Part shown: positions 1 to 21,941 of the stretch, piece by piece
Numbering within the stretch: the first letter of the stretch is position 1
Layout of the letters: each line of letters begins with the position of its first letter
DNA from: a virus
Virus record (IMG/VR): IMGVR_UViG_3300025810_000090
Location: 1 to 22,689 of that record
Strand: one strand, 5' to 3'
DNA: 22,689 nt
The notes under the pieces: model-generated
What the model was told of the DNA's origin: nothing
The model's input: the letters and a program-made list of their open reading frames with translations, nothing else
Database searches by the model: none
Made by a program: the position numbers and the translations under genes

Positions 1-432
1 ACACCTGAAGGACAAGCAAAATTTTCAGATATGAATAAAGAGGCTTTGGAAAGAGGCTATGAAGGATTAATGGTCAAGCCAGTTGATTCAATTTATGAAT
101 GTAAACGAAGTTATTCTTGGTTAAAAATTAAACCTTTTATTGAAGTAACTCTTACAGTAACAGAAGTCGAAGAAGGCACAGGCAGAAACGAGGGTAGACT
201 CGGCGCACTAATTTGTGAAGGCACAGATGATGGACAGTTTATCAAAGTAAATGTTGGTAGTGGGCTTAGCGACACCGACAGAGATGTATTCTGGGATGCT
301 AAGGATAAAGTAATAGGACAGTTGGTTGAAGTAAGAGCAGATGCAATTACACAAAACCAAGATGGTTCCTACAGTTTAAGATTTCCTCGTTTTAAAACAT
401 TTAGAGGATTTGAAGTTGGAGAAAAACTATAA
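1..432 (+). CDS. ATP-dependent DNA ligase, C-terminal part (5' end outside window)
   Basis: The reading frame is open from base 1 and runs to TAA at 430-432, giving 143 residues of the C-terminal part. Visible motifs are nucleotidyltransferase motif IV (EGLMVK, about residues 21-26) and motif V (SWLKIK, about residues 39-44). They are followed by roughly 100 residues fitting an OB-fold domain. This order (end of the adenylation domain, then OB fold) is that of ATP-dependent DNA ligases, which seal nicks through a ligase-AMP intermediate. The lysine motif I lies upstream of the window and cannot be checked. T4-like phages carry such a ligase (gp30), but I cannot tell from this fragment whether it is gp30-like or another phage ligase lineage. 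The next gene overlaps the stop by one base. Confidence 0.85.
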   Translation, partial: TPEGQAKFSDMNKEALERGYEGLMVKPVDSIYECKRSYSWLKIKPFIEVTLTVTEVEEGTGRNEGRLGALICEGTDDGQFIKVNVGSGLSDTDRDVFWDAKDKVIGQLVEVRADAITQNQDGSYSLRFPRFKTFRGFEVGEKL

Positions 433-686
433 TGTATTGCACAGAAATAAATGAAGTTAATGGCGGTAAACAATATGTTTACAAATTTCCAAATGGTTAT
501 GGTGCTTCAGTAGTAAAACATGATTTTTCATACGGCGGTAAGGATGACCTATGGGAGTTAGCAGTTTTAAAAGAAGGGGAACTTTGTTATGATACCCCAA
601 TTACTAATGATGTTTTGGGAAATCTAACTACAGGTGAAGTAAACGAAACTTTGGAACTAATACAGGATATACCAAAGCCACGCTAA
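432..686 (+). CDS. Small conserved-type phage protein, unknown function
   Basis: 84 residues, ATG overlapping the ligase stop (TAATG). A GGAG at 418-421 lies 11 bases upstream and can serve as ribosome binding site, so it is likely translated with ligase. The sequence is soluble in character, with several aromatic residues and short predicted strands (YVYKFPNGYGASVV near the start). There is no signal peptide, membrane helix or catalytic motif I recognise. The composition (C, W, G-rich turns) looks like a small beta-rich domain. I know proteins of this kind as unknowns in marine T4-like phages but cannot assign a role. Confidence 0.75.
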   Translation: MYCTEINEVNGGKQYVYKFPNGYGASVVKHDFSYGGKDDLWELAVLKEGELCYDTPITNDVLGNLTTGEVNETLELIQDIPKPR

Positions 687-701
687 AAAGTTTTTTCTGC
701 A

Positions 702-709
702 TATAAATA
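702..709 (+). promoter_or_regulatory. T4-type late promoter box TATAAATA
   Basis: Exact T4 late consensus TATAAATA in the 46-base gap before the gene at 733. With the T4 geometry (start 6 bases after the box) transcription would begin near 715, leaving an 18-base leader that contains the GGAG ribosome binding site at 722-725. There is no -35 element, as expected for gp55-type late promoters. Confidence 0.75.
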
Positions 710-732
710 ATAGAAAATTATGGAGAAATGTG

Positions 733-951
733 ATGCCAATAAAATTTAAACCTTCCCAAGATATAAGAGACAAAAACTCAGGTAAAGTAAAACAAACTCA
801 TTTTTATATAAAGTCAACACCTAAAGAAGAATTGATAGAATATATTAATTCGTCTAATGGCAAACCAAAAATAAAAATGAAATGTAGAAACGAACTAACA
901 AGACGTGGAGTCCAAATAGTTTGGAAAACGGTTAGCCCAACCGGTATTTGA
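733..951 (+). CDS. Small conserved marine T4-like phage protein, unknown function
   Basis: 72 residues. I chose ATG at 733 rather than the in-frame GTG at 730 because GGAG at 722-725 is 7 bases upstream and the protein then begins MPIKFKPSQ. The body is basic (many K and R) with a conserved-looking HFYIKSTPKEEL segment and a CRNELTRRG segment. I recall near-identical small proteins in cyanomyoviruses and related marine phages, always as unknowns. It is the first gene behind a late box. The stop (TGA, 949-951) overlaps the ATG of the radical SAM gene by one base, so the two are probably translationally coupled. Confidence 0.82.
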   Translation: MPIKFKPSQDIRDKNSGKVKQTHFYIKSTPKEELIEYINSSNGKPKIKMKCRNELTRRGVQIVWKTVSPTGI

Positions 952-1820
952 TGAGACAAAAAACTTACTTAGAAATCTGGCCCGTTTTAGATTGTAATCT
1001 AAAATGTAAAAACTGTTCTATGGCAAGTCCGTATTTCAAAAGTAAACATGCTATTAATCTAGAACAATTTAAAAAAGATTGTGATAGAATGAAAGACTTA
1101 TTTAAACTAGATGTGGTTAGAATAAGTGGAGGTGAACCTACAACACACCCTGATATTATAGAAATTATGAAATATCCAAAGGAGTGTGGACTTGTTTACA
1201 AAACAAATCTTATTACAAACTGTCTTAACTTAGTTAGCCAACCAGATGAATTCTGGGAAGCATTAGACATTTTAAATATTAGTGTTTATCAAAATACAAA
1301 CATTAACTACGATAAAGTGTTTAGAAAGATAGAGGAAAAGTTAAAACAATATCCACATTTAAAATGTAATGATATTACAGACCCTGAGGTATACAATAAG
1401 TTTAGGGGGTATGAAAAAGATGTTAAGTCCAAAGGTATGGAAGTAAACATAGAACAAGGTTACTTCAAAAAAATGTGGGCAACTGAAAAATGGTCAGACG
1501 AAAAGGCAAACGAAATATTTTCAAGTTGCTGGATGAAGGATAGCACCTGGGGATTTCACGATGGACATTTTTATAGGTGTCCAATAACATTAATGAAGGA
1601 CAAACTATACGAACAAGAATCATGTAGTAGGTTTAACTTTGATGCTGATAGAATAAATATACACGACGCTGATGCAGAGGAACAATTAACTAAACTGTTG
1701 GAACAAACTACAGCATTGGAAGCGTGTAAAACGTGTTATGGCTTTAACACAGGTGTTGATGAACCTCACGAACAAATGGACAAAAATAAAATATTAATTA
1801 AAGATATCTTATATGCCTAA
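951..1820 (+). CDS. Radical SAM enzyme with SPASM-like C-terminal cysteines
   Basis: 289 residues from ATG 951, which overlaps the upstream stop; an in-frame TTG at 948 is less likely. Residues 15-22 carry the radical SAM 4Fe-4S motif CxxxCxxC (C15, C19, C22), and GGEP at 60-63 is the SAM-binding motif. The C-terminal third has further cysteines (C193, C210, C225, C259, C262), an arrangement typical of SPASM/twitch auxiliary cluster domains. The family forms a 5'-deoxyadenosyl radical from SAM. Members with auxiliary clusters often modify peptides or small molecules, and here the substrate is unknown. It is co-transcribed with two small genes and lies behind the late box at 702. It is not obviously QueE or the anaerobic NrdG activase: it is too long and has extra cysteines. 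Confidence 0.88.
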   Translation: MRQKTYLEIWPVLDCNLKCKNCSMASPYFKSKHAINLEQFKKDCDRMKDLFKLDVVRISGGEPTTHPDIIEIMKYPKECGLVYKTNLITNCLNLVSQPDEFWEALDILNISVYQNTNINYDKVFRKIEEKLKQYPHLKCNDITDPEVYNKFRGYEKDVKSKGMEVNIEQGYFKKMWATEKWSDEKANEIFSSCWMKDSTWGFHDGHFYRCPITLMKDKLYEQESCSRFNFDADRINIHDADAEEQLTKLLEQTTALEACKTCYGFNTGVDEPHEQMDKNKILIKDILYA

Positions 1821-1828
1821 GCGACCAT

Positions 1829-1845
1829 TATAAATATTATAAATA
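1829..1845 (+). promoter_or_regulatory. Tandem late promoter boxes TATAAATA x2
   Basis: Two exact TATAAATA octamers lie one base apart, at 1829-1836 and 1838-1845, directly after the radical SAM stop. With T4 geometry they would start transcription near 1842 and 1851. The second start is only 3 bases before ATG 1854. Both match consensus fully, with no -35 element. Confidence 0.75.
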
Positions 1846-1853
1846 GAGTAACT

Positions 1854-2162
1854 ATGCCACTATATACATTTGAAAACATTGAAACAGGAGAAGTTTTTGA
1901 TAAACTGATAAAACTTGCCGAACGTGAACAATTTTTGAAGGACAACCCAAATCTAAAACAGCAGATATCTGCACCGAGTTTAATAGGTGGCACAGGTGAT
2001 AGGACTAAGGCACCTGCAGGGTTTAAAGATGTATTACAAAAGATTGCTGATAAGGCACCTGGTTCTAAACTAGCGCAGGATTATGGGCGCAAAGACCCTA
2101 CAACGGTTAGAACTAGAACGGCGATAGAAAAAACAAAGAAGCGCCTTGGAATGGAAGACTAA
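1854..2162 (+). CDS. Small conserved phage protein, FmdB-like N-terminus without the zinc cysteines
   Basis: 102 residues. The N-terminus MPLYTFENIETGEVFDKL resembles the start of FmdB-type zinc-ribbon proteins, but the CxxC pairs are absent, so no zinc site is expected. The middle holds a Gly/Ala/Pro segment (APSLIGGTG, KAPAGFKDVL) and the C-terminus is a basic helix. From memory, similar proteins occur in marine T4-like phages, sometimes labelled as prohead or FmdB-like; I cannot confirm either. The gene sits immediately behind two late boxes with no Shine-Dalgarno, and its stop overlaps the next ATG by one base. A late, virion-related role is an inference from the promoter only. Confidence 0.75.
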   Translation: MPLYTFENIETGEVFDKLIKLAEREQFLKDNPNLKQQISAPSLIGGTGDRTKAPAGFKDVLQKIADKAPGSKLAQDYGRKDPTTVRTRTAIEKTKKRLGMED

Positions 2163-2266
2163 TGATTTTAGAAGCTCTGGGATGGGCTTTCTTAGTATTT
2201 TTAATTTGGAATACAGTAGGAATAGGTTGGATACTATACAAATTTAGAAAAGATATATTTAACTGA
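2162..2266 (+). CDS. 34-residue single-helix membrane peptide
   Basis: A short frame starting at the TAATG junction with the previous gene and ending TGA at 2264-2266. The peptide begins MILEALGWAFLVFLIW and ends with a basic tail (YKFRKDIFN). Residues about 3-25 form one hydrophobic helix with tryptophans at the edges, typical of a small inner-membrane protein. The one-base overlap supports translational coupling. The function is unknown. Phage peptides of this type include holin regulators and membrane-associated host modulators, but nothing here selects among them. Confidence 0.6.
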   Translation: MILEALGWAFLVFLIWNTVGIGWILYKFRKDIFN

Positions 2267-2359
2267 GAACAAATATTATATAATGAAAACTAAGGGGACC
2301 ACTTACAACAATTGATTTATATTTTGGTTTATCCAAAGATATTACCACGAGTAAACGAC
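2267..2359 (+). other. Short non-coding stretch before the tRNA
   Basis: About 90 bases without a credible gene; the only start here gives a 10-residue frame. A TATAAT at 2279-2284 has no good -35 at 16-18 bases, so I do not call it a promoter. No hairpin terminator is evident. Confidence 0.4.
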
Positions 2360-2367
2360 TATAAATA
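2360..2367 (+). promoter_or_regulatory. Late promoter box TATAAATA directly upstream of tRNA-Thr
   Basis: Exact consensus (preceded by C). T4 geometry puts the transcription start near A2373, 2 bases before the first base of the tRNA at 2375. This promoter would also serve the coiled-coil gene at 2469. Confidence 0.72.
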
Positions 2368-2374
2368 AACAAAC

Positions 2375-2450
2375 GCTGGATTAGCTCATTAGGTAGAGCA
2401 GGGGTTTTGTAAACCTCAGGTGGCCAGTTCGAATCCGGCATCCAGCACCA
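2375..2450 (+). tRNA. tRNA-Thr(UGU)
   Basis: A complete 76-base cloverleaf with encoded CCA. The 7-bp acceptor stem (GCTGGAT with ATCCAGC) is perfect. The D arm has GCTC/GAGC with an 8-base loop. The anticodon stem GGGGT/ACCTC has one G-U pair, and its 7-base loop TTTGTAA gives anticodon TGT (2408-2410), reading ACA. The T loop is TTCGAAT, with an A-C mismatch in the T stem (GCCAG/CCGGC). The discriminator is A, then CCA at 2448-2450. ACA is a frequent threonine codon in this AT-rich sequence, so a supplementary tRNA would help translation. It is the only tRNA I find in the window. Confidence 0.93.
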
Positions 2451-2468
2451 TACAACATAAGGAAAAAT

Positions 2469-2990
2469 ATGAATATAAAAATACCAACAGGAACAGAAAG
2501 ACTTTACTTAGAAAAGTTAGTAGATGTTTTAAGAGACGAAATTTCAGGCCTTATGCAAGATAGGTCTAGCTTATCGTCTGCTCTTACAATCTACAATGAA
2601 TTGGAAGTAGAACAAAATAGAAGACTCGATGAAGCACATAAAGAAATTATGGAAAAAGAAATTGAGATTAAACATCTTAAACGAGAACTTGCCCAGGCTA
2701 AAAAGAAGAAACCAGTAAAGAAACAAAAACCTTCAGTATTAGAAAAAGTTACATCAGCAGTTCCTATTGAAGAAGTTACAATACCGACAGGTGAAGAATT
2801 ACATAAGATGCCTAAAGCTAAACTTGTTCAGGCAGCTAAACAGCTAGGGTTTTCATATGATATGAAACAGGCTAAACATCTTATGATAGAACAATTTGAA
2901 AAAGACACAGATGCATTTATTAAAGGCCTTAAAGAAGAGGGTGCTTTTGTAAATTTAGAAGAAGAGGATTTAGATGGCGGAAGCTATTAA
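2469..2990 (+). CDS. Coiled-coil protein with C-terminal HeH/SAP-like segment
   Basis: 173 residues. AAGGA just upstream (2459-2463) supports ATG 2469. Residues about 8-80 are a continuous charged helix with heptad character (EKLVDVLRDEI..., EIMEKEIEIKHLKREL), followed by a poly-Lys patch (KKKKPVKKQKP). The C-terminal part (about residues 118-155, KMPKAKLVQAAKQLG...) resembles the short helix-extended-helix / SAP-type DNA-binding motif. The first 40 residues of the protein at 14282 have a similar K-x-KLV-x-x-AK pattern. The protein may be a DNA-binding or scaffold-type component, but the function is unknown. Its stop overlaps the next ATG by one base. Confidence 0.75.
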   Translation: MNIKIPTGTERLYLEKLVDVLRDEISGLMQDRSSLSSALTIYNELEVEQNRRLDEAHKEIMEKEIEIKHLKRELAQAKKKKPVKKQKPSVLEKVTSAVPIEEVTIPTGEELHKMPKAKLVQAAKQLGFSYDMKQAKHLMIEQFEKDTDAFIKGLKEEGAFVNLEEEDLDGGSY

Positions 2991-3634
2991 TGTTCTGGGT
3001 CTTTGGTGATAGTTGGGCTGAAGGATATGGCCTAAAGAAAAACGAAAAGAATTTTAGTAACTGGATTCAAGAATTTACAGGTGAAAGAGTAGCCAACTAT
3101 GGTAAAGCTGCCTCCTCATTAGGACATATTACATTTGATGTTCTAAAACATTCTAACTCCTTTTCAGTTGGCGACACTCTAATTGTCGTTACCCCTCCTG
3201 ATGTTAGATGGTATGATATTAAAAGCAAAACTCAATGCACTTCATTGTTTGAAGGTATGACGAAGTATGACGAATTCTTAGAGGATAAAACTGTAGAGTG
3301 GTTTACTTATCACCATAATTTATTCGGTATGACGATTGTAAATAAAGCTATACAAAGGGGCATGAAAGTTGTTCTTATGAGAAACTTTGGTTCTTTGCAC
3401 TTGTGGGATTGGGCGGAAGATATTATACTACGACATACATTAAATAAAGAGCAAAGTCTTACAGAAATGCTAACAGATAATAAATTCAATTTAAGTTCTG
3501 GATTGGTTGAGCAAGGATTTAAAATTAACCAATTTAAAGAAATACCACATCCAAACTTTATTCCTGGGGATAATCATCCTAACGAAACAGGACACAAAAT
3601 AATAGCAAGAAAAGTGCTTGACTTTTTGAAATAA
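2990..3634 (+). CDS. SGNH/GDSL-type hydrolase
   Basis: 214 residues, starting at the TAATG junction. Block I is at the extreme N-terminus (FGDSW, Ser at residue 8), and NYGKAASS near residue 37 can be the second block. Block V is DNHPNETGH, with H196 followed by PN. The aspartate is two residues before the histidine rather than three. SGNH enzymes hydrolyse esters on lipids, glycans or acetylated sugars with a Ser-His pair. No signal peptide is present, so the enzyme acts in the cytoplasm or is carried in the virion. In phages such proteins often act on host surface glycans or remove acetyl groups; the substrate here cannot be told. The promoter of the next gene lies inside its last codons. 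Confidence 0.8.
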   Translation: MFWVFGDSWAEGYGLKKNEKNFSNWIQEFTGERVANYGKAASSLGHITFDVLKHSNSFSVGDTLIVVTPPDVRWYDIKSKTQCTSLFEGMTKYDEFLEDKTVEWFTYHHNLFGMTIVNKAIQRGMKVVLMRNFGSLHLWDWAEDIILRHTLNKEQSLTEMLTDNKFNLSSGLVEQGFKINQFKEIPHPNFIPGDNHPNETGHKIIARKVLDFLK

Positions 3635-3646
3635 CGAACTTATAAT
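3618..3646 (+). promoter_or_regulatory. Sigma70-type promoter (TTGACT-N17-TATAAT) giving a leaderless start
   Basis: TTGACT at 3618-3623, a spacer of exactly 17 bases, then TATAAT at 3641-3646: 11 of 12 consensus bases. The -35 lies in the end of the SGNH gene. The expected start, about 7 bases after the -10, is A3653, the first base of the start codon of the next gene. Confidence 0.78.
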
Positions 3647-3652
3647 AAGTGT

Positions 3653-4738
3653 ATGAATAAGAACTTACACTTAGAACACTTAGAAGATACAGTTTTAAAC
3701 TTCGGCACACAGGGTGCTAAAGATAGTGTTGAACTGTTGAACAAAGGTTTTGTTCCTACTGTAAAATATGACGGCTCCCCAGCTGTCTTTGCAGGCACAG
3801 ACCCAAGTGATGGTAAGTTCTTTGTTGCTAAAAAGTCCGTCTTTAATAAAACTCCTATATTATATAAGACCCCTGGTCAAATTAAAAAGGCGGACTTGCC
3901 TAATGACCTTAAAGATAAATTTATGGTCGCACTTAAAGAATTTAAAAAGTTAGACATCAAGGGTGTTATACAAGGTGATATCATGTTTACTAAAAATGAT
4001 ATTAAAAGAATAAATAGTGCTTATGTTACATTTCAACCTAATACGATTACTTACAGATTACAAGAAGTTGAAGTCAGAGATAAAAACATAGGAGTTGTTT
4101 GGCATACACAATACACAGGTAAGTCATTAGAAACTATGACAGCATCCTTTGACTTTAGTATTGATTCCTTAAAACAAACTAAAAATGTATGGCAACGAGA
4201 TGCAAACTACAAAGGTGGCTTCGTTAGTGTAGACACAAACAATATCAATATACCAACTAAACTTACTAAATTCCTTAATATACAAAATAGTTTTCCTAGT
4301 AAACTTATAGGTGCAAAGTTAAAAACATTTAATAACAAGTTCGTAATGGATGGCAAAAAATTACCGTCATCTAAAAGACATGCTAAAAGTTATATTACAT
4401 ATGTTAAAAACAGATATAATATTGAAATAGATAAACTTAAGACAGTCAAAGCACGCACACAGCTAACTGAACAAAGAGACCAGGTAGTTAAGGCACTACA
4501 GGCAGAAGTAAACACTATACAGAGTGTCGTAGAGTTTCAGAAAGCTATTACAACGGCTAAAAACAAAGTAATAAACAAACTTAACAAAAATCATGACGTG
4601 GCTTGTTTTATAGGTGAACAAAGAACTAATCCTGAGGGCTATGTGGCAATCAGTAAAAGTGGTCCTATAAAACTTGTAAATAGATATGAATTTAGTTATA
4701 ATAACTTTAACGGAGAAAAACAATGGCAAAAACAGTAG
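3653..4738 (+). CDS. Ligase-like covalent nucleotidyltransferase (DUF6267-type)
   Basis: 361 residues. The sequence carries the hallmarks of the ligase/capping nucleotidyltransferase fold. Motif I is KYDG at 38-41 (putative AMP-accepting Lys38), an acidic GDIMF segment lies at 109-113, motif IV is EGYV at 328-331, and motif V is IKLVNR at 339-344. The long insert between motifs (about 130-310) and the lack of a C-terminal OB fold separate it from the DNA ligase at the window start. From memory it matches a phage family named DUF6267; the name should be checked. Ligation of RNA or modification of a protein or nucleotide are possible roles, and the substrate is unknown. It has its own early-type promoter and no ribosome binding site. 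Its last 16 bases overlap the next nucleotidyltransferase gene. Confidence 0.75.
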   Translation: MNKNLHLEHLEDTVLNFGTQGAKDSVELLNKGFVPTVKYDGSPAVFAGTDPSDGKFFVAKKSVFNKTPILYKTPGQIKKADLPNDLKDKFMVALKEFKKLDIKGVIQGDIMFTKNDIKRINSAYVTFQPNTITYRLQEVEVRDKNIGVVWHTQYTGKSLETMTASFDFSIDSLKQTKNVWQRDANYKGGFVSVDTNNINIPTKLTKFLNIQNSFPSKLIGAKLKTFNNKFVMDGKKLPSSKRHAKSYITYVKNRYNIEIDKLKTVKARTQLTEQRDQVVKALQAEVNTIQSVVEFQKAITTAKNKVINKLNKNHDVACFIGEQRTNPEGYVAISKSGPIKLVNRYEFSYNNFNGEKQWQKQ

Positions 4739-5268
4739 TATTTACATATGGCAGATTTAACCCACCAACTAAGGGGCATGCTAAATTGATTAGCAAAATT
4801 AAAGACGTCGCACAAAGTAATAATGCTGACCATGTAATTGTTGCATCCCATACACAGGACAACAAAAAGAATCCGTTACCACAAGACGTAAAAGTAGAAC
4901 ATTTAAATAACTTGTTCCCAGAAACAAACTTTAGATGTTCAGATAAAACAAATCCTACTTTTGTCAATCAACTAGCTTTGTTAGATAAAGAGTATGATAA
5001 TGTTGTATTTGTTGCAGGAAGCGACCGTGTAGAAACTTACGCCTCGGTTCTTAATAAATACAATGGTAAAGACTTTACATTTAAAAATGTAGAGGTTGTA
5101 TCCGCAGGTCAAAGAGACCCAGACGGTGATAGCGTTGAAGGTATATCCGCAACACAAATGCGAGAGTATGCTATTAACAATGACCTCGAAAGTTTTAAGA
5201 AAGCTTTACCTAGCGATTACGCATTATCAGAAAATTTATTTAACGAGGTTAGAAAATGTTTAAATTAA
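4723..5268 (+). CDS. HIGH-type nucleotidyltransferase (cytidylyltransferase / NMN adenylyltransferase-like)
   Basis: 181 residues, ATG 4723 behind GGAG at about 4711. The N-terminus has the nucleotidylyltransferase signature RFNPPTKGH (residues 11-19, with GH at 18-19), and ISATQMRE at 141-148 is the ISSTxxR-type motif that contacts the triphosphate. This fold (Rossmann-like, NadM/NadD/cytidylyltransferase superfamily) joins a nucleotide to a phosphorylated substrate. The NadE-type gene at 19397 in the same window makes NAD chemistry attractive, but substrate specificity cannot be read from these motifs. Similar proteins in marine T4-like phages are usually called cytidylyltransferases. It overlaps both the upstream gene and the endolysin gene. 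Confidence 0.85.
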   Translation: MAKTVVFTYGRFNPPTKGHAKLISKIKDVAQSNNADHVIVASHTQDNKKNPLPQDVKVEHLNNLFPETNFRCSDKTNPTFVNQLALLDKEYDNVVFVAGSDRVETYASVLNKYNGKDFTFKNVEVVSAGQRDPDGDSVEGISATQMREYAINNDLESFKKALPSDYALSENLFNEVRKCLN

Positions 5269-5705
5269 GTAACATAAGCAAAGAAAGATTAGAAGGCATC
5301 AAGCCTGAATTACGTGCAGTTGTAGAAAGAGCAATAGAAATTACAGAAGTTGATTTCGGAGTAACTCAAGGACTAAGAACAATAGAAGAACAAGAAGCAC
5401 TTGTAGCTAGAGGTGCAAGTAAAACTATGAAGTCCAAACATTTAACAGGTGACGCTGTAGATTTAGCTGCCTATGTGGGCTCTAGAGTTAGTTGGGAAAT
5501 TAAACTTTATGATGATATTGCTGATGCTATGAAACAGGCAGCTATAGAATTAAATACTCCTATTAGATGGGGAGCAGCTTGGACAGTAGCAGATATTACT
5601 AAATGGGAAGGCACAATGGAAGAGGCTATGAATGCCTATGTCGATTGGCGTAGAAAAGAAGGAAGAAGACCATTTATTGATGCACCGCATTTTGAACTAG
5701 TTTAG
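5256..5705 (+). CDS. Endolysin, M15-type L-alanyl-D-glutamate / D-Ala peptidase
   Basis: 149 residues, about the usual size for single-domain phage M15 peptidases. The zinc site is clear: SKHLTGDAVDL (H62 and D69, the SxHxxGxAxD motif), then APHFEL at the C-terminus (H145, with the catalytic region before it). The early VTQGLRTIEEQEALVARG segment is also typical of this family (VanY/peptidase_M15_4, e.g. phage T5 endolysin). It cuts peptidoglycan stem peptides at lysis. No signal peptide is present, so it needs a holin to reach the cell wall. The start overlaps the preceding gene by 13 bases. Confidence 0.9.
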   Translation: MFKLSNISKERLEGIKPELRAVVERAIEITEVDFGVTQGLRTIEEQEALVARGASKTMKSKHLTGDAVDLAAYVGSRVSWEIKLYDDIADAMKQAAIELNTPIRWGAAWTVADITKWEGTMEEAMNAYVDWRRKEGRRPFIDAPHFELV

Positions 5706-5708
5706 TCT

Positions 5709-5716
5709 TATAAATA
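5709..5716 (+). promoter_or_regulatory. Late promoter box TATAAATA 5 bases before a start codon
   Basis: Exact consensus between the endolysin stop and ATG 5722. In T4 geometry (+1 six bases after the box) transcription starts exactly at A5722, the first base of the start codon. No Shine-Dalgarno is present. Confidence 0.78.
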
Positions 5717-5721
5717 GTCGT

Positions 5722-7131
5722 ATGAGTAAACGACTACAATCATTTAAAGACTCAATAAAAGAGCAAACATTTATGGATAAAATCCGTAGTCGTGTTGCCA
5801 CAGCTAAAAAGAATTTACAAAAAGGGGCTGATGCATACGCTGCCGACCATAAAAAGAGAGCCAGCCAAAATCCCTTAAAACCCACTCCAGGTGGTATATT
5901 TGATAGAATGTCTAAAAAGAATGAAGAATTAGACACACTAAAAGGACTAACTTTACCAAAGATAAAAAAGAATTTATCTACCAATCAGAAAAAATTGAGA
6001 AAGGATAAAGAGAAAAACAAAACTTTTAAAAAGATAGATATACAGGATAACACGAATAGGGGTGGGGGCGAGAACGTTGTCGAGGACGCTCAATACAACG
6101 CTAAGCCGGGCGGGCATGAATGGGGCACCGCAAAAGGAACGGAGTATTATAAAAAACTTACTCCGGGTCAAAGTTCTAAGTTTAATCAAAAACCTGAACC
6201 AGTAAAAGTTCCAGTAGAAGAAGATGTCGCAGGAGCAATTAAGGACACAATAAAAAGTTTAGCAAACCCAAGCAAAGTTGTTAGACAAAAGGTTAAAGTT
6301 GCTGGTCGTAAATACAATCCTAAAACACCCCTAAATAAAACACAAGCTTTTCATGCCAAAATGAATAGAAATATGTCTCATGGATTAAAACAAGCATTAA
6401 GAGCCAAAAAGGTTGCTTGGGTTGACGATGTTAACCACGATGAAGATTTAATAGAAGGATTAAATAAGGAACTATTAGATTACATTAGTCAAGTAGAAGA
6501 GCATGGCTTTACAGAACAAGACATTCTCGAAATGGAAAAAGAAGTTGATTCAATGGATTTGGAAGACTTTTTAACATTGGGAGGTTATTCAGACGAAGAC
6601 TTCTATGATGAAGATGAGGATAATGATGGCGATGTAGATATCTATGACGACTTAAACATTACAGAAGTTCTAACTATTCAAGGACGTATTAAAAGAAGGT
6701 TCGCAGCTAGACGTAATAGACAAAAATTAAAAGTTGCGAGGGCAAGGGCATTAAGAAGGTCAAGTTCTCCAGATAGAATTAAACTTAGGTCAACTAGGTC
6801 AGCAAGAAACTTTATGTATAAAAGGCTCTTACGTGGAAGAGATAAAACTAATCTCCCACCATCAGAGAAACAACGTTTAGAAAAACTTATTAAACGTTTT
6901 GAGCCGATTGTAAGTAGAATTGCTGTTCGTATGTTACCACAAATTAGGAAGAAAGAGGTAGAGCGTCTAAAACGTAGAGGTTCAATGAAGTCTCAGAAAG
7001 CTAAGAAATTCAGAGTTTCAAAAGGCGGTTCAGCTTCCAAATATAAAGCTAAGAAATTTAAAATTAAAAACAAGCCAACTCTTAGACCAAAATTGACTAA
7101 GAAGGCTAAAGCAGTAGGGAAAAGAAAATGA
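5722..7131 (+). CDS. Long modular Lys/Arg-rich late protein with EF-hand loop
   Basis: 469 residues, low complexity and modular. Residues 1-115 are highly basic. Residues 116-150 (EDAQYNAKPGGHEWGTAKG...) come from a GC-rich patch. Residues 165-290 alternate basic and acidic helices. Residues 298-309 form a textbook EF-hand calcium loop (D298, D300, D302, G303, D306, D309). Residues about 318-418 are a very basic helical domain (RIKRRFAARRNRQKL...), a module I recall from many marine T4-like phage proteins. The tail is Lys-rich. The exact late box at its start codon indicates late expression, and nucleic-acid binding inside the capsid is a plausible inference. It overlaps the next gene by 4 bases (ATGA). 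Confidence 0.75.
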   Translation: MSKRLQSFKDSIKEQTFMDKIRSRVATAKKNLQKGADAYAADHKKRASQNPLKPTPGGIFDRMSKKNEELDTLKGLTLPKIKKNLSTNQKKLRKDKEKNKTFKKIDIQDNTNRGGGENVVEDAQYNAKPGGHEWGTAKGTEYYKKLTPGQSSKFNQKPEPVKVPVEEDVAGAIKDTIKSLANPSKVVRQKVKVAGRKYNPKTPLNKTQAFHAKMNRNMSHGLKQALRAKKVAWVDDVNHDEDLIEGLNKELLDYISQVEEHGFTEQDILEMEKEVDSMDLEDFLTLGGYSDEDFYDEDEDNDGDVDIYDDLNITEVLTIQGRIKRRFAARRNRQKLKVARARALRRSSSPDRIKLRSTRSARNFMYKRLLRGRDKTNLPPSEKQRLEKLIKRFEPIVSRIAVRMLPQIRKKEVERLKRRGSMKSQKAKKFRVSKGGSASKYKAKKFKIKNKPTLRPKLTKKAKAVGKRK

Positions 7132-7865
7132 AAACATTTCTAGAATACGTAATTGAAAATCAATTAGGAGTTAAACAAAGAACAGATATGGCAGGTAAAG
7201 GCATATTTCCTAAGGATGGTGCAGGAAAACCTTTAAAGAAACATCTATTTTTTAAAACTCCACAGAAGAATAAAACAACAGGCAAAACTTCTATGCAACC
7301 TCATGCTAAAATAGGAGCAACTGCGGACACCTTTAGAAAAGAAGAAAAACAAAAAGGTGTTGACGGCAAAGTATGCTGGAAAGGCTATAAGCGTATGGGC
7401 ACTAAGAAAAAAGGTGGCAAAACTGTAGATAATTGTGTTCCAATAAAAGAAGTAAGCACTAATACTATGGCAAACTATTCACAGGCTGCACAACAATCAA
7501 TGAAAAAGGATTCTTCACCTGAGAATGTTAAGAAAAGAACAAAGGGTTTAGCCAATGTAGGTAAAAGATTAGGATTCAAGGCATTCAATAAAAAACTGAA
7601 TGAGGACGATAAACCTAATAAAACAGGCGACGATGCTAAAGGGCATAAAAGACCTACAGAAGATGGTGCTGGACTTACAGCTAAAGGTGTAGCAGCCCAT
7701 AGAAGAGCTAATCCAGGCAGTAAGTTACAAACAGCTGTAACAACACCGCCAAGTAAATTAAAGAAAGGTAGTAAAGCAGCCAAAAGACGTAAGTCATTTT
7801 GTGCTAGAAGTAAATCATGGACAGGTGAAAGGGGCAAAGCTGCCAGACGTAGATGGAACTGTTAA
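7128..7865 (+). CDS. Lys-rich protein with two Cys/Trp modules (DUF6321-like C-terminus)
   Basis: 245 residues, starting at an ATGA overlap with the previous gene; AGGG lies just upstream. The N-terminus MKTFLEYVIENQLG is of the kind that opens several marine T4-like virion proteins. Two short conserved modules stand out: CWKGYKRMGTKKKGGKTVDNC (about residues 83-103), and the C-terminal KAAKRRKSFCARSKSWTG...RRRWNC. I recall the second as a phage/algal-virus domain (DUF6321, name from memory). Both pair cysteines with Lys/Arg and Trp, perhaps for metal or nucleic acid binding. Function is unknown; co-expression with the late gene before it suggests a virion or packaging role. Confidence 0.75.
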   Translation: MKTFLEYVIENQLGVKQRTDMAGKGIFPKDGAGKPLKKHLFFKTPQKNKTTGKTSMQPHAKIGATADTFRKEEKQKGVDGKVCWKGYKRMGTKKKGGKTVDNCVPIKEVSTNTMANYSQAAQQSMKKDSSPENVKKRTKGLANVGKRLGFKAFNKKLNEDDKPNKTGDDAKGHKRPTEDGAGLTAKGVAAHRRANPGSKLQTAVTTPPSKLKKGSKAAKRRKSFCARSKSWTGERGKAARRRWNC

Positions 7866-8599
7866 TAGATGATATTGTTCAAAAGCAGGAACACTTAGAC
7901 CCTATACTATTTGAAAATAACACTTTAAAACCTGACGTAAAGGAAGAACTTTTATCTCTTTTTGAGGAAATACAACCAGGTTGTTACAATAACTTTCCAG
8001 ACGTTGTTATTTCAGGTTCACGTTCTACTTATTACTATCACGAACATTCAGATTTAGATATAGCCTTTTTGGCTGAACGGCCTTTACCCCATTTACCAAA
8101 CCTCAGAGAAACTATTATGTTTAGAGGCTTACGTCTTGAGTATTCGGTAGTTCCTAAAGATGCCTTTGTTCATGCTACTAGAATAGGAGTTTATAGTCTT
8201 AAAACTGAAACATGGTATCATAATCATGATTGTGAACTGCCTAATGAAGAAAGAAAACAAGAAGCATATCGTATATACAATAGATTAAAAGAAGAGATAT
8301 GTAACTTAGACCCTAAGGATGTAAAACAATATATGGGATTAAGTCATTTAGAAGAAATAGGAAAGTTTGATAGGAAAAAACTTTTTACACCTTATAAACC
8401 AGAACTACCATTAGATGAAGTTGTAAAAGAAGCATCGGATAACATGGGATTCGGTGTTCATATGCATCAGGTGAAATTACGTATACATAATGAATGCCCG
8501 TATAGTATATTTCACCCACTAGTATTAGCAACAAAACTAATAATAAAGAATGGCTACTATGAAAAATTAACAGGGCTAAGAGTAAACGGACAAATATGA
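7853..8599 (+). CDS. Polymerase-beta-type nucleotidyltransferase
   Basis: 248 residues. The catalytic signature is GS (55-56), ten residues, then DLD (67-69), i.e. the GS-x10-DxD of the nucleotidyltransferase superfamily (minimal nucleotidyltransferases, tRNA CCA-adding enzymes, antibiotic adenylyltransferases). The acidic LEYS near residue 95 can be the third carboxylate. The N-terminal segment QKQEHLDPILFENNTLKPDV is a leader I recall from other phage members. The enzymes transfer NMP to RNA, protein or small molecules; the target here is unknown. It overlaps the end of the preceding gene by 13 bases and is followed, again with overlap, by a 54-residue gene. Confidence 0.82.
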   Translation: MELLIDDIVQKQEHLDPILFENNTLKPDVKEELLSLFEEIQPGCYNNFPDVVISGSRSTYYYHEHSDLDIAFLAERPLPHLPNLRETIMFRGLRLEYSVVPKDAFVHATRIGVYSLKTETWYHNHDCELPNEERKQEAYRIYNRLKEEICNLDPKDVKQYMGLSHLEEIGKFDRKKLFTPYKPELPLDEVVKEASDNMGFGVHMHQVKLRIHNECPYSIFHPLVLATKLIIKNGYYEKLTGLRVNGQI

Positions 8600-8760
8600 A
8601 AAGACCAGAAGTAGGAGACAAAATAGAACATTTTTGTCGTTTGAACGGAGCATTTCAAGGTGAAGTAATAGAAATATTATCATCACAATTTGTTTATAAA
8701 ACAGATAAGGGCGAGGAACGTTTCTGTTTATTCAGAGAATTATGGAAAATTGTTAAATAG
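8596..8760 (+). CDS. 54-residue beta-rich small protein
   Basis: ATG 8596 overlaps the stop of the nucleotidyltransferase (ATGA), and the frame ends TAG at 8758-8760. The peptide starts MKRPEVGDKIEHFCRLNG and continues GEVIEILSSQFVYKTDKGEE. This alternation of short strands with G/D turns resembles an SH3-like small barrel. It has two cysteines and no membrane helix. The tight coupling suggests a partner or accessory of the nucleotidyltransferase, but that is inference. Small proteins ending with a Phe-Arg-Glu-x-Trp stretch occur in related phages as unknowns. Confidence 0.65.
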   Translation: MKRPEVGDKIEHFCRLNGAFQGEVIEILSSQFVYKTDKGEERFCLFRELWKIVK

Positions 8761-8773
8761 AGTGGTTTAGAGT

Positions 8774-8781
8774 TATAAATA
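8774..8781 (+). promoter_or_regulatory. Late promoter box TATAAATA within a small inverted repeat
   Basis: Exact consensus with expected start near A8787, giving a 23-base leader before ATG 8810. The box is framed by AGAGT (8769-8773) and ACTCT (8781-8785), a perfect 5-base inverted repeat around it. Confidence 0.7.
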
Positions 8782-8809
8782 CTCTTATACAAACAATTAA
8801 GTAAATAAT

Positions 8810-10081
8810 ATGTCAGAAATAGATTCAATTAAAAGAATAATGTTAGGAGAAATGTCTCCAGACATGAAACGCTTGGACCAACTTGTAAGACAAGGAATGG
8901 CACCGACAGCGTCTTTACCTATGATACATCGAGGATTACAAAAACTTCAAAGTGGACAAACATTAAATCCAACTGAAAGAGCCGCTGTTAATAATGTCAT
9001 GCAAAAGATGATGGCTATGGTAACAGGTGATGATACAGTTTTTCAAAGAACTAGAATGCATACACAAAAAACACGGTATCAAACTGAGGAAGCAGATGAG
9101 TTAGAGATAGAAACTACTGAAATTCCATTAAGCGAATTAATGGAGGAAGTAAAACCTCATAAAATGTTCAAAGATGATAAAGTTAAAATGGCAAAAGATA
9201 AAAAAGACCATGATAAGTTAAAGAAGAAAGGCTATACGCACGATGACCCCGAGACTAAAGAAGTCGAGGAAGAGAAAAAGAATTGTGGGTGTGGAGAAAC
9301 ACCATGTAAAACACACGGCAAAAAGAAAAAGGATATGGAAGAAGGTATAGATATTAAAAAAGCCGACATGGGAGAAGTAATTAAAGATTTTCAGGATTCA
9401 GATGCACCTCAATTTAAAGGTAAATCTAAGGACAAAAAACGAGAAATGGCAATAGCAGCCAAACTTGATGCAAAAGACAAAAAAGAGGAGACCCAAGTGG
9501 AAAACACATTAATATCAAAAACGCTTGAAGTAATAGAACAACAAGTAGTAGACAAAGGTCAGCGAATGAAAATTAAGAAGAAGGGAGCTAAAGTTAAGAA
9601 GCAACTTTCATCTAAAGACTTCGGACAACCTGAGGCAATTAGGCAACAACCTCATATGAGAAAAAAGATGCCTAACTTAAAGAACGAAACAGAATATTCA
9701 AATGTTCTTAAAAGTCTATCTGAAATGGATATTAAATATAAAGTATCTAGACCAAAGGCTATTAGTCCTGAATTAAAAGACACATTAAAGAAAGGTAATA
9801 AAGAACTTTCTAAGTCAATGGACAAACTTAAAAAGATGAAAGGCGATAATATGCCGGAGTCTTACAAAGACAAATTTAAGAAAATGCTTAAGGGCAAAGA
9901 TTTAGGTAAAATGTCAGATGCAGAAACCAAAGAGTTTTTCAAAAATGTAGATAAATCACATAAAGCTGACAATGAGGCATATCAACCAGAACTTCCTGGA
10001 ATGGGGCAAAAGAAACCTGTTCAACCGGAACTTCCAGGTATGAAACCTAAAACTAAACCTGTAATTAAGAAAACAACTTAA
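8810..10081 (+). CDS. Long modular Lys/Glu-rich late protein, probable virion-associated
   Basis: 423 residues. Residues 1-75 are a more ordered helical domain (QLVRQGMAPTASLPMIHRGL..., MQKMMAMVTGDD). The rest is charged and repetitive: a KMFKDDKVKMAKDKKDHDKL module, a CGC...C...H cluster near residue 160, and a DAPQFKGKSKDKKREMAIAAK module near residue 200. It ends with two QPELPGM repeats. I recall the same modules in varied order in other marine T4-like phage proteins. It sits behind an exact late box but has no Shine-Dalgarno (TAAATAAT lies before ATG). A capsid-internal, scaffold or DNA-associated role is an inference. No enzyme motif is seen. Confidence 0.75.
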   Translation: MSEIDSIKRIMLGEMSPDMKRLDQLVRQGMAPTASLPMIHRGLQKLQSGQTLNPTERAAVNNVMQKMMAMVTGDDTVFQRTRMHTQKTRYQTEEADELEIETTEIPLSELMEEVKPHKMFKDDKVKMAKDKKDHDKLKKKGYTHDDPETKEVEEEKKNCGCGETPCKTHGKKKKDMEEGIDIKKADMGEVIKDFQDSDAPQFKGKSKDKKREMAIAAKLDAKDKKEETQVENTLISKTLEVIEQQVVDKGQRMKIKKKGAKVKKQLSSKDFGQPEAIRQQPHMRKKMPNLKNETEYSNVLKSLSEMDIKYKVSRPKAISPELKDTLKKGNKELSKSMDKLKKMKGDNMPESYKDKFKKMLKGKDLGKMSDAETKEFFKNVDKSHKADNEAYQPELPGMGQKKPVQPELPGMKPKTKPVIKKTT

Positions 10082-10091
10082 CAATTTATAG

Positions 10092-10099
10092 TATAAATA
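10092..10099 (+). promoter_or_regulatory. Late promoter box TATAAATA with leader and strong ribosome binding site
   Basis: Exact consensus; expected start near 10105, leaving a 16-base leader with AGGAG at 10110-10114, 6 bases before ATG 10121. This is the best complete late-expression signal of the window, fitting an abundant structural protein. Confidence 0.82.
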
Positions 10100-10120
10100 A
10101 AAATAAAATAGGAGAAAAAA

Positions 10121-10369
10121 ATGTCCGCATGGAATAAAACAACTCAGAAGCCTGTCGTAACTGGTTACGATGCAGCTGATATCTACATGGTAGACGAGGC
10201 CGAAGTCGCAGCTACTAATGGGATTGCACAACCTGGTTGGGTCCACGTTAAAACTGTAGGTTCTAGAAAACTTTACGAAACTCTAGTAGCTATGGCACAA
10301 CCTTCAACAGATGCTGAATATGAGGCAGCTGGTGGAGCAGATGACGACGCTGAATTCCCAGACAGTTAA
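10121..10369 (+). CDS. Small late structural candidate
   Basis: 82 residues, strongly acidic C-terminus (EAAGGADDDAEFPDS). The N-terminal part (WNKTTQKPVVTGYDAADIYMVDEAE) and the middle (GWVHVKTVGSRKLYETLVAMA) look like a compact domain conserved among marine T4-like phages, as far as I recall. The strong late promoter plus AGGAG predicts high expression late in infection, so a minor capsid, neck or decoration protein is plausible. No enzymatic motif, no membrane helix. A perfect 17-base palindrome covers its stop codon. Confidence 0.8.
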   Translation: MSAWNKTTQKPVVTGYDAADIYMVDEAEVAATNGIAQPGWVHVKTVGSRKLYETLVAMAQPSTDAEYEAAGGADDDAEFPDS

Positions 10370-10381
10370 TTAGTAATTAAC
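10365..10381. repeat. Perfect 17-base palindrome between two structural genes
   Basis: GTTAATTA, a single central G, then TAATTAAC: 8-base arms with no mismatch. It covers the upstream stop codon and ends two bases before the next ATG. The one-base centre makes an RNA hairpin poor, so a protein binding site or chance are alternatives. Confidence 0.6.
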
Positions 10382-10382
10382 A

Positions 10383-10829
10383 ATGGCTGATCAAAAATTA
10401 AGTGAACTAACGAGTGTATCGGGAGCAGCTGCTTCTGATACTCTCTATTTAGTTAAAGATGGTGCAAGTAGTAAAATAACTTTTGCTAATCTTTTAGCTA
10501 CGGTTCCTACCCCTGTAGCTTTTACAGATAAAGTTACAATAGGCGATGTAGATACAATGACTTCATTGGGTTCTGTTAGTATAACAACTAACGTTACTTA
10601 TCTTAATAACCTATCATCAGGCGGGACTTTGAGTATTGGAACAGGAACTGAAGGTCAAATTAAAATTATTATTATGACAAGTAATACAGGTGGATATACA
10701 GTAGACTTAGATGACTCTGATGTTCAGCACGACCTTATTAGATTTACGGAGGCAGGTCACACTGCTACTTTACTATGTGCCAACGGTAAGTGGTTTATGA
10801 TTGGAGGAACTGCTACTGTTACTAACTAA
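10383..10829 (+). CDS. Tail-fibre / virion structural protein
   Basis: 148 residues. The N-terminus MADQKLSELTSVSGAAASDTLYLV, followed by a K-I-T segment, is the standard head of phage tail-fibre and receptor-binding proteins in marine phages, where it attaches to the baseplate or neighbouring fibre. The remainder is Gly/Thr/Ser rich with short beta strands (SVSITTNVTYLNNLSSGGTLSIGTG), ending in a beta sandwich-like segment (LLCANGKWFMIGG). It is short for a full fibre, so it may be a fibre tip or connector. It lies in the late block between two structural candidates. Confidence 0.82.
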   Translation: MADQKLSELTSVSGAAASDTLYLVKDGASSKITFANLLATVPTPVAFTDKVTIGDVDTMTSLGSVSITTNVTYLNNLSSGGTLSIGTGTEGQIKIIIMTSNTGGYTVDLDDSDVQHDLIRFTEAGHTATLLCANGKWFMIGGTATVTN

Positions 10830-10836
10830 ATAATGT

Positions 10837-11217
10837 ATGATTGAAATAAATGAGAATAACTTTCTCATATATGCTATAAAGAATTATAACAATCCAGAAT
10901 GCGAAGGCATGGATGATTTAGAACAAGACTTAAAACGGTTTAAGTATCTAAAAAGATTGTTTGGCAGATATGCGAAAAACGGTGTATTAAGCGAAAGGCT
11001 AATACTTAACCATCTAGTAGTGCTATATAATGTGTTCGGGAACTCTGCGACACGTTTACTTTTCTATCAAATTGAGGAAAAGTATTGGGCAATATTAAAG
11101 TCCTTTTTAGTTTATTTGAAAAGGGTGCCGTTGGATGAGATAGCAAAGCCAACAAAGTCGGAATTTTTTAACATTCCATTAGATGGAAAGGTATTGGATA
11201 AACTTAGGGAAATTTAA
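10837..11217 (+). CDS. Conserved T4-like marine phage protein, unknown function
   Basis: 126 residues, mostly helical: DDLEQDLKRFKYLKRLFGRYA, then LSERLILNHLVVLYNVFGNSATRLLFYQIE. I recall this arrangement in cyanomyoviruses as a widely conserved unknown (possibly a DUF72xx family; the number is not certain). No membrane helix is long enough to be convincing, and no catalytic motif is present. The start is preceded by TAAATAATGT rather than a Shine-Dalgarno. It is directly followed by the next gene with no spacing, so the two are probably expressed together as part of the virion assembly block. Confidence 0.78.
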   Translation: MIEINENNFLIYAIKNYNNPECEGMDDLEQDLKRFKYLKRLFGRYAKNGVLSERLILNHLVVLYNVFGNSATRLLFYQIEEKYWAILKSFLVYLKRVPLDEIAKPTKSEFFNIPLDGKVLDKLREI

Positions 11218-11754
11218 ATGTCAAGATTTGTAGACTCCGTAGTAGTATATCGCATATTGCGATTACTTTCCACGCCGATTGTTCAATCAGATGCCTATAA
11301 ATTGGGCCTAGTAGATAAAGACGCCAAGAAAATAAAAGAACCACAAACAAATCAAGAGTTAGAAGCATACAGCTTACTTCAACGTTTCGTATTTAAAATA
11401 CAAAAAGCATTAACAAGGTCTAGCGATATGAACGCTAAAAGACTTTTAACTTTCGCAGCTGCACTCTCTATTTTAAGAGAATATAAAGAGATAGATGAGG
11501 AAACACCAATTGAAACGTTAATCGAATTATTTGAAACAGACCCTAAAGTTCAAGAGCAAGCAAGACTATTAGAAAATCACAATCTAATATCATTTAAAAA
11601 TTACATACAGGACCTAGATGAAATGATGGGTGTAGGTGGTGGTGCCATTGCCGGATTAGGTGTTGGCCCTCAAGGCGAGCCCGGTGTATCTAAAAAGAAA
11701 CAAAAAGAAATACAAAAGAAAGGGGGAACAGTCATAAGACGTAACTCTAAATAA
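11218..11754 (+). CDS. Conserved phage protein with collagen-like tail segment
   Basis: 178 residues, starting on the base after the previous stop. The first two thirds are helical (SVVVYRILRLLSTPIVQSDAY..., LLQRFVFKIQKALTRSSDM). The part after residue 140 is Gly-rich (GVGGGAIAGLGVGPQGEPGV) with one collagen-type G-P-Q-G-E-P triplet, then a basic tail (KKKQKEIQKKGGTVIRRNSK). I recall it as a marine T4-like conserved protein adjacent to the preceding family, without a known role. The paired occurrence of both suggests that the two proteins act together in virion assembly; this is inference. Confidence 0.76.
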   Translation: MSRFVDSVVVYRILRLLSTPIVQSDAYKLGLVDKDAKKIKEPQTNQELEAYSLLQRFVFKIQKALTRSSDMNAKRLLTFAAALSILREYKEIDEETPIETLIELFETDPKVQEQARLLENHNLISFKNYIQDLDEMMGVGGGAIAGLGVGPQGEPGVSKKKQKEIQKKGGTVIRRNSK

Positions 11755-11757
11755 ATT

Positions 11758-12420
11758 ATGAAAATCCTAATAGTAGGCAACTTTCGCACAGGAAGTTGGA
11801 CACTCCTTAACAAATTAAAAGAAGAATATAATCTCGGAAGCATGGGTGAGCTTTTTAGTGATTTTAGAGCTCAAGACGCAGACAAAATAATAGAAGAAAA
11901 GTTCAACACATTTGCCTATGGTAAAAATGTTATTGCTAAATTACATCCTACACAATTGGAAAGAGGCTTTCTTTTAAACTCAAATGAAATAATTGATATA
12001 TGTCTTAAATTTTGTAAGTTTTCAGATAAAATAATATATTCACATAGAAGAAATACATTAGAACAAGTTGTAAGTTATACAGTAGCTAGAGAACAGTCAG
12101 TAGGTAAAGCATTTGCAAACCCAGAAGCATGGTTAGCCGGAGATAAGGACATGACTCCTTTTGATGCTACTAGGGATAATTACACAAAGGAAATGACTGA
12201 TGTAGCTTTATTAAATGGGTATAGAAGGTTATTAGATGGGCATAATTATATACAAAAGATATATGAAAAATATCCACGTGAAGTAATTACTATGGAAGAT
12301 GTCAAACCTTATAACCCATATCCAAATCAATATAAATACAAAGGAAGCTGGCAACCGCCAACAAATTTTATTTTAGGAAAAGGTGAGATGGAACCTAAAC
12401 CTAATACTGAAATTACATAA
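11758..12420 (+). CDS. Sulfotransferase-like protein
   Basis: 220 residues. The N-terminus MKILIVGNFRTGSWTLLNKL holds the 5'-phosphosulfate binding loop pattern (RTGSxxL, residues 10-16) directly after the first beta strand. KIIYSHRRNTLEQVVSY (about 91-107) matches the second PAPS-binding motif (Arg and Ser contacting the 3'-phosphate). These are the two signatures of P-loop sulfotransferases, which move sulfate from PAPS to sugars, proteins or small molecules. The protein is short for the family and the substrate is unknown; some family members bind without catalysis. It lies in the late block, so a modification of the virion, host surface or a metabolite is possible. Confidence 0.75.
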   Translation: MKILIVGNFRTGSWTLLNKLKEEYNLGSMGELFSDFRAQDADKIIEEKFNTFAYGKNVIAKLHPTQLERGFLLNSNEIIDICLKFCKFSDKIIYSHRRNTLEQVVSYTVAREQSVGKAFANPEAWLAGDKDMTPFDATRDNYTKEMTDVALLNGYRRLLDGHNYIQKIYEKYPREVITMEDVKPYNPYPNQYKYKGSWQPPTNFILGKGEMEPKPNTEIT

Positions 12421-12722: not shown

Positions 12723-13211
12723 ATGGCTAAGGAATTAGAAACACAAGTTGCTTTATTAGAGAAAGAAATTACTTCTACTAGAGAAGTCTTCTCTAAACTT
12801 GATTCTGCTATTGAAAAAATATCAGATGTTTCTAATTGCATTAATAAAATGTTAGCCGTTCATGAGCAGAAGATTGCCCAAACGGAACAAGATACGGAAG
12901 ATTTATTTCATTTAGTAGAAAAAAGACGTTTGGAGTTAAACGAAGACATGAAGGAGTTGCATAGTAGGATAACAACCGGACAGCGTGAGGCTCAGAAAGA
13001 AGCTCATGCCCAGGTTGATAAAATTATGAATGCTATTGGTGATTTAAAAGTTCATATTGAACAAAAGGATTTAAAACAAGATGAGGCTCGTTGGAAACTA
13101 GAGCAAAAAATGGCTGACCTAGAAAAAAGACAATGGTTTATTTTAGGGGCGGCTTCAATTCTCGGAGTATTATTCGGAAATATGGACTTTTTGATGTCCT
13201 TAATGTCTTGA
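12723..13211 (+). CDS. Coiled-coil protein with C-terminal membrane anchor
   Basis: 162 residues. Residues 1-130 are one long charged coiled coil (LETQVALLEKEITSTREVF..., HIEQKDLKQDEARWKLEQKM). Residues about 138-158 form a hydrophobic helix (WFILGAASILGVLFGNMDF). The layout (N-terminal coiled coil, C-terminal helix near the end) is that of XhlA-type hemolysin/holin-associated proteins and of tail-anchored membrane proteins. With the endolysin elsewhere in the window this makes it a possible lysis component, but the spacing from the endolysin and lack of a second helix leave this weak. Its last codons contain the -35 of the primase promoter. Confidence 0.75.
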   Translation: MAKELETQVALLEKEITSTREVFSKLDSAIEKISDVSNCINKMLAVHEQKIAQTEQDTEDLFHLVEKRRLELNEDMKELHSRITTGQREAQKEAHAQVDKIMNAIGDLKVHIEQKDLKQDEARWKLEQKMADLEKRQWFILGAASILGVLFGNMDFLMSLMS

Positions 13212-13236
13212 CAAAATAATCTAAACCCTATATAAT
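13208..13236 (+). promoter_or_regulatory. Sigma70 consensus promoter (TTGACA-N17-TATAAT) for primase, predicted leaderless
   Basis: A perfect 12 of 12 match: TTGACA 13208-13213, 17-base spacer, TATAAT 13231-13236. The -35 overlaps the preceding stop codon. The -10 contains the upstream ATG 13235, so that ATG cannot start translation of this transcript. The start 7-8 bases after the -10 falls at 13243-13244, where the ATG of the primase begins. Confidence 0.88.
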
Positions 13237-21882: not shown

Positions 21883-21911
21883 TTGACAACGGGCCTCCAC
21901 GAAGTTACTAT
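21883..21911 (+). promoter_or_regulatory. Sigma70-type early promoter (TTGACA-N17-TACTAT)
   Basis: TTGACA at 21883-21888, 17-base spacer, TACTAT at 21906-21911 (4 of 6). Located in a real intergenic gap of 62 bases. The expected start near 21918 gives a 24-base leader with AAGGAGA before ATG 21942, i.e. a conventional early gene signal. A GC patch (CGGGCCTCC) lies in the spacer. Confidence 0.68.
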
Positions 21912-21941
21912 ATAGTATATGAAACTAAAAGGAGACCTTAA

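Follow-up and report, generated by a model that had tools for sequence, protein, structure and literature searches.

In the window, the whole 22,689-nucleotide stretch of viral DNA analyzed here, a host-σ70-type promoter at 3618-3646 very probably leaves a DUF6267 gene without a leader, as one case of a layout found across a group of phages. RNA from this promoter would begin 5′-AUG at the DUF6267 start and, lacking a Shine-Dalgarno (SD) motif, would be translated via the leaderless route, in which the ribosome, typically the 70S particle, binds the 5′-terminal AUG directly. On this reading, marine T4-like phages of heterotrophic bacteria would have early and late promoters set so that +1 coincides with the start codon, at genes that include those for gp43 DNA polymerase, gp61 primase, DUF6267, DNA end protector gp2, CsgF and others. 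The 5′ ends, the early timing and the leaderless translation are predictions from sequence.

Promoter and gene at position 3653

The preliminary description of this DNA had pointed out a TTGACT-N17-TATAAT sequence with +1 at about A3653. The layout is exactly as described, and its reading as a leaderless promoter is now backed by genome-wide and cross-phage statistics. The elements at the locus are:

2990-3634, + strand: upstream gene encoding 214 aa, possibly SGNH/GDSL-like (Pfam match under the cut-off)
3618-3623, + strand: −35 hexamer TTGACT, within an extended TGCTTGAC and overlapping the 3′ end of the upstream gene
3641-3646, + strand: −10 hexamer TATAAT, ending 6 nt before the ATG at 3653-3655
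3653, + strand: predicted +1, the A of the ATG, placed by canonical σ70 geometry; base −1 is T
3653-4738, + strand: DUF6267 (phrog_455) gene, assigned by profile matches, 361 aa with a KxDG motif, predicted to be leaderless

A sequence check gives TTGACT-N17-TATAAT-AAGTGT-ATG for 3618-3655, an 11/12 match with a 17-nt spacer. The site thus combines a TTGACA-like −35, a spacer within 16-18 nt and a TATAAT-like −10, as in σ70-type promoters. Counting the A of the ATG as +1, the −10 hexamer spans −12 to −7, which is its canonical σ70 position; the predicted +1 falls within 1-2 nt of the start codon, and there is no SD motif upstream of ATG 3653. Among positions 1-12000 of the window, 3618-3646 is the top promoter match. 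Weak promoter-like matches in the same region number 36 versus 40.5 in shuffles, showing no excess, and only strong matches were therefore used. The TGCTTGAC sequence around the −35 is also common to other leaderless promoters of the window phage. Four nearly identical contigs, all from one species, are the sole carriers of the exact DUF6267 promoter of the window, so that 3618-3646 is supported by its membership of a class and not by conservation of its own. The best-supported reading of this site is a σ70-type, presumably early, promoter that starts transcription at the start codon itself. A palindrome, ACTTAT-A-ATAAGT, covers the −10 at 3638-3650.

The start at ATG 3653 is backed by homologues that align from residue 3 (K-N-LHLEHLED), and no in-frame ATG, GTG or TTG occurs between the upstream stop, TAA at 3632-3634, and 3653. 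The product matches the DUF6267 profile (PF19782) at full length and above the cut-off (E = 1.7e-83, residues 4-356), as well as phrog_455 (E = 4.8e-90), and the family is common among marine T4-like phages. The protein had been labeled a ligase-like nucleotidyltransferase in the preliminary description. Six DUF6267 homologues share invariant K38, D40 and G41 (KxDG), E328 and G329 (EG) and the C-terminal K340, a pattern that is compatible with such an enzyme without proving it; the family, however, is DUF6267, and no ligase family in Pfam or PHROGs matches the protein.

The stop codon of the SGNH/GDSL-like gene shares its frame with the DUF6267 ORF, whose start follows 18 nt after it. Relatives of this upstream gene occur only in contigs of the same phage species, and at its N terminus, the DUF6267 protein of the window falls 10-12 residues short of most relatives. 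Together, the restricted gene, the in-frame stop and the short N terminus suggest that the gene upstream of DUF6267 was swapped in the window species.

Promoters at leaderless distance across related phages

Whole records were searched with the pattern TTGAC-N18-19-TAnnnT-N6-8-ATG, with the reversed pattern as control. Each window-species record contains three to six matches, nearly all on the coding strand, versus none for the control; in P-SSM2 and S-PM2, matches of the motif search are near the control level. One match, at 21883-21921, was discarded as its ATG is out of frame, the real gene starting at 21942 with an SD leader.

In a separate census, strict promoters were compared with ORF starts after deduplication, and the background expectation was taken from neighboring spacing bins; the ORF-based gene caller is crude, which is partly offset by checks against annotated starts. 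The four records of the window species (G000, G001, G003 and G004; 121 kb) hold eight distinct genes with a promoter at 6-8 nt versus 0.21 expected (P = 9e-11). Early sites at this distance are likewise in excess in the IMG/VR relatives (26 versus 3.2 expected, P = 2e-15), in Pelagibacter phage Mosig (5 versus 0.43, P = 8e-5) and in Methylophilales phage Melnitz (4 versus 0.64, P = 4e-3). Pelagibacter phage HTVC008M has no early excess, though its late promoters do show one, and neither early nor late promoters are in excess at leaderless distance in T4, RB49, S-PM2, Syn9 or P-HM2.

The spacing from promoter to start is bimodal, at either 6-8 nt or about 28-34 nt with few cases in between. In the window species, an SD of at least 4 nt is present at none of the eight leaderless genes, compared with seven of eight leadered genes. 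Base −1 is a pyrimidine at all eight leaderless genes, as expected at a transcription start site, compared with 46 of 89 crude ORF starts. The leaderless early set of this species comprises DUF6267 (3653), the gp61 primase (13244), gp43, a kinase-family protein and four others. Members of the set, and leadered promoters for contrast, are listed here (window coordinates unless another record is named):

13208-13236, + strand: promoter TTGACA-N17-TATAAT, a 12/12 match, 7 nt before ATG 13244
13244-14281, + strand: gp61-type DNA primase gene, predicted to be leaderless
12562 of record G001: gp43 DNA polymerase (phrog_262), with a promoter at leaderless distance
14048 of record G004: polynucleotide-kinase-family protein, HAD type, with a promoter at leaderless distance
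4674-4702, + strand: leadered promoter TTGTAA-N17-TATAAT, 20 nt before ATG 4723, with SD GGAG
21883-21911, + strand: leadered promoter TTGACA-N17-TACTAT, 30 nt before ATG 21942, with SD AAGGAG

The primase and polymerase genes allow the layout to be followed across relatives. Among 24 non-redundant primase loci, a promoter 6-8 nt before the start occurs at 16; all of these have a 17-nt spacer and none a 4-nt SD, and the sequence between the elements differs among them while the spacing stays. The other eight loci either have the promoter at 22-26 nt (three) or have none (five), and six of the eight carry an SD of at least 4 nt. The annotated primase start of Melnitz, at 26014, is exactly the predicted leaderless position. 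For gp43, seven loci (70-100% identity) hold a distance of 6-7 nt, and at two of these the −10 reads TATAAC. Promoter and start codon are displaced together in L387, by 3 nt. The gp43 relatives at 56-68% identity mostly have leaders of 23-30 nt with an SD, and most of those at about 47% identity are promoterless. These patterns indicate that the layout switched state between lineages, with the spacing held where the layout is present. Between the primase and nrdA genes of the window, 14282-14710 encodes a 142-aa protein with a long proline-rich PTPA repeat.

Whether related phages keep the spacing had been proposed as a check on the original reading. At other genes they do, with 6-8 nt at the 16 of 24 primase loci and at the seven polymerase loci. 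At DUF6267 itself the outcome is divided. Relatives of this gene mostly abut or overlap the gene upstream and have no promoter, and most of the distant ones (37-45% identity) are without any promoter at the gene, but four relatives (L033, G008, G010 and G016) carry the strict late promoter TATAAATA-N5-ATG, also at leaderless distance. In several phages, then, DUF6267 seems to lack a leader whether its promoter is early or late. Several 11/12 early promoters at 6-8 nt in DUF6267 relatives of the L067 type were rejected as support, because their −10-like TATAAT is flanked by the arms of an inverted repeat that follows a late-type box, and some members have lost the −35.

A set of DUF6267 relatives with a short N terminus (L304-L383) has a late-type box, CATAAATA or CTAAATA, about 50 nt upstream (for example, L304 1451-1500). 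Behind the box comes an inverted repeat, AATAGTAG...CTACTATT, which runs right up to the ATG, and there is no SD. The repeat is possibly a 5′ hairpin leader; its seven pairs are invariant except for GU/GC and show no covariation.

In T4-type late promoters, the box TATAAATA precedes the start by about one helical turn (PMC2988020). In the arrangement TATAAATA-N5-ATG, +1 would fall on the A, and the occurrences form a sharp peak at this one position. There are 14 cases versus 0.8 expected in the IMG/VR relatives, five versus 0.19 in HTVC008M and two each in Melnitz and Mosig, and none in T4, RB49 or the cyanophages (S-PM2, Syn9 and P-HM2). All five HTVC008M sites are annotated CDS starts, belonging to genes for a dioxygenase, CsgF, a baseplate wedge subunit, DNA end protector gp2 and a hypothetical protein, and the gp2-like gene of Mosig is also preceded by TATAAATA-N5-ATG. 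In Melnitz, six early or late leaderless-distance sites coincide with annotated starts. The window contains one exact case:

5709-5716, + strand: T4-type late box TATAAATA, exact, 5 nt before ATG 5722 of a predicted leaderless late gene
5722-7131, + strand: the 469-aa gene behind this promoter

Relatives show the excess and T4, RB49 and the cyanophages do not, which suggests that having leaderless early and late genes is characteristic of the heterotroph-infecting marine T4-like group. A leaderless early gene had been flagged in the preliminary description as unusual; the layout is indeed present, but it is no isolated oddity, as at least eight genes of the species share it and late promoters do too.

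Alternative readings of the DUF6267 promoter

Other explanations for the sequence ahead of DUF6267 were weighed against a leaderless σ70-type promoter. The match at 3618-3646 could be fortuitous, with DUF6267 translated off a polycistronic mRNA by ribosomes that reinitiate after the upstream stop. The −35 does lie in coding DNA (CTT GAC, Leu-Asp codons of the upstream gene), the −10 could be ordinary AT-rich DNA, read-through with reinitiation across a same-frame gap of only 18 nt could supply the protein, and the abutting or overlapping arrangement without a promoter is the usual one among DUF6267 relatives. We nevertheless consider this quite unlikely, as an 11/12 match with the optimal 17-nt spacer has a chance of ~1.2e-5 per position under a Markov model of the window and here stands at the exact leaderless offset. 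In addition, the TGCTTGAC extension and the pyrimidine at −1 recur at other sites of the species, and eight such genes in ~121 kb cannot all have arisen by chance. A very improbable alternative takes the box at 3641 as a degenerate T4-type late promoter, which depends on gp55 and needs no −35, making the gene leaderless but late. This would fit the four relatives with the strict late promoter, and TTATAATAAGTGT abutting the ATG in the window resembles TTATAAATAGTCGT abutting an ATG, minus one base. However, with the box placed 5 nt before +1, 3641-3649 matches the late box at 5/8 positions, and the best match of 6/8 is in the wrong register, whereas 5709-5716 is exact; the 11/12 σ70 match, its 17-nt spacer and the species-typical −35 also argue against a late promoter.

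It is also possible, though unlikely, that the promoter is real but that upstream read-through yields most of the DUF6267 protein, the leaderless transcript being a minor or pulse source, and that, as happens with some T4 early/late genes, a weak hairpin hides the AUG solely in the read-through RNA. An 8-bp inverted repeat, TAAGTGTA/TACACTTA (3646-3653 with 3666-3673), spans the AUG and would be lost in the leaderless RNA. Its fold, however, is no stronger than that of shuffled sequences (z = 0.18 for 80 nt and −1.38 for 90 nt), and its downstream arm also codes for protein.

Comparison with known systems

To our knowledge, leaderless genes in phages are mostly single cases. The group considered here, in contrast, consists of lytic T4-like phages with leaderless expression predicted for many genes of both classes, early and late, among them those for the replicative polymerase and the primase. 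The mRNAs resemble known leaderless mRNAs of bacteria and phages, such as lambda cI from PRM, which likewise begin at or next to the AUG and have no SD (PMC9031893). Bacterial leaderless initiation proceeds mainly by 70S ribosomes on the 5′-terminal AUG and differs in its response to IF2, IF3 and initiator tRNA (PMC9031893). Leaderless mRNA and single phage examples are already known, whereas systematic use in T4-like phages is apparently new, as in the literature searched leaderless genes are nowhere described as a systematic feature of T4-like phages or of pelagi- or methylophages.

The standard example of replication genes controlled at translation through their leaders is T4, which represses gene 43 via an operator over the gene 43 ribosome-binding site. 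A leaderless gp43 mRNA would consequently lack a T4-style operator of this kind. The T4 early (σ70) and late (gp55) promoters have the same hexamers as those of the window group, the late TATA box lying about one helical turn upstream (PMC2988020). The difference is in placement: T4 and RB49 have no leaderless-distance excess in the census, and T4 late boxes are mostly 17-29 nt before the ATG.

Melnitz, HTVC008M and Mosig are related T4-like marine phages (PMC9004378, PMC7892664), and leaderless-distance promoters are found in all three, at annotated starts in Melnitz and HTVC008M. Predicted promoters in the Melnitz paper number 31 for the early and 15 for the late class (PMC9004378), and leaderless expression is not described in the passages covered of either the Melnitz or the Mosig paper (PMC9004378, PMC7892664); the word ‘leaderless’ appears once in each, in the Mosig paper within a gene-finder citation.

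The conserved spacing could be due to a habit of the host. In the streamlined marine bacterium Prochlorococcus MED4, 6-8% of the primary transcription start sites are no more than 10 nt away from a start codon (PMC5607370). MED4 is, however, a cellular host, and the three cyanophages S-PM2, Syn9 and P-HM2 are without the pattern. A more tentative idea, which we regard as doubtful, is a deliberate leaderless program that shields early replication genes and selected late genes from SD- or leader-based control. It is similarly doubtful, as part of the same idea, that leaderless genes are favored when the ribosomes or initiation factors of the infected cell change, perhaps via phage-made factors. 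Phage-encoded ribosomal protein bS21 was rejected as the cause: the window-species records, which are fragments, do not contain it, and of the 26 records searched just these four do:

35461-35619 of record W01: bS21
91237-91392 of record W03: bS21
6197-6352 of record G021: bS21
16565-16720 of record G027: bS21

If the group-wide leaderless layout is true, abundant ocean phages would express their polymerase, primase and some late genes without leaders, and control of these genes must differ from that in T4. They would also serve as a large natural experiment on leaderless initiation in streamlined hosts, SAR11 and OM43 for example, with HTVC008M, Mosig and Melnitz at hand as isolates of the group. 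Gene finders trained on SD motifs may misplace leaderless starts.

Elsewhere in the window, 19084-19416 encodes an IscA-like protein with a C-terminal CGCG motif. Host assignment through this gene was rejected, the nearest bacterial match being only 54%; that match lies in a contig binned as Pelagibacter that holds several small phage-like ORFs. A tRNA-Thr (tgt) gene is located at 2375-2450.
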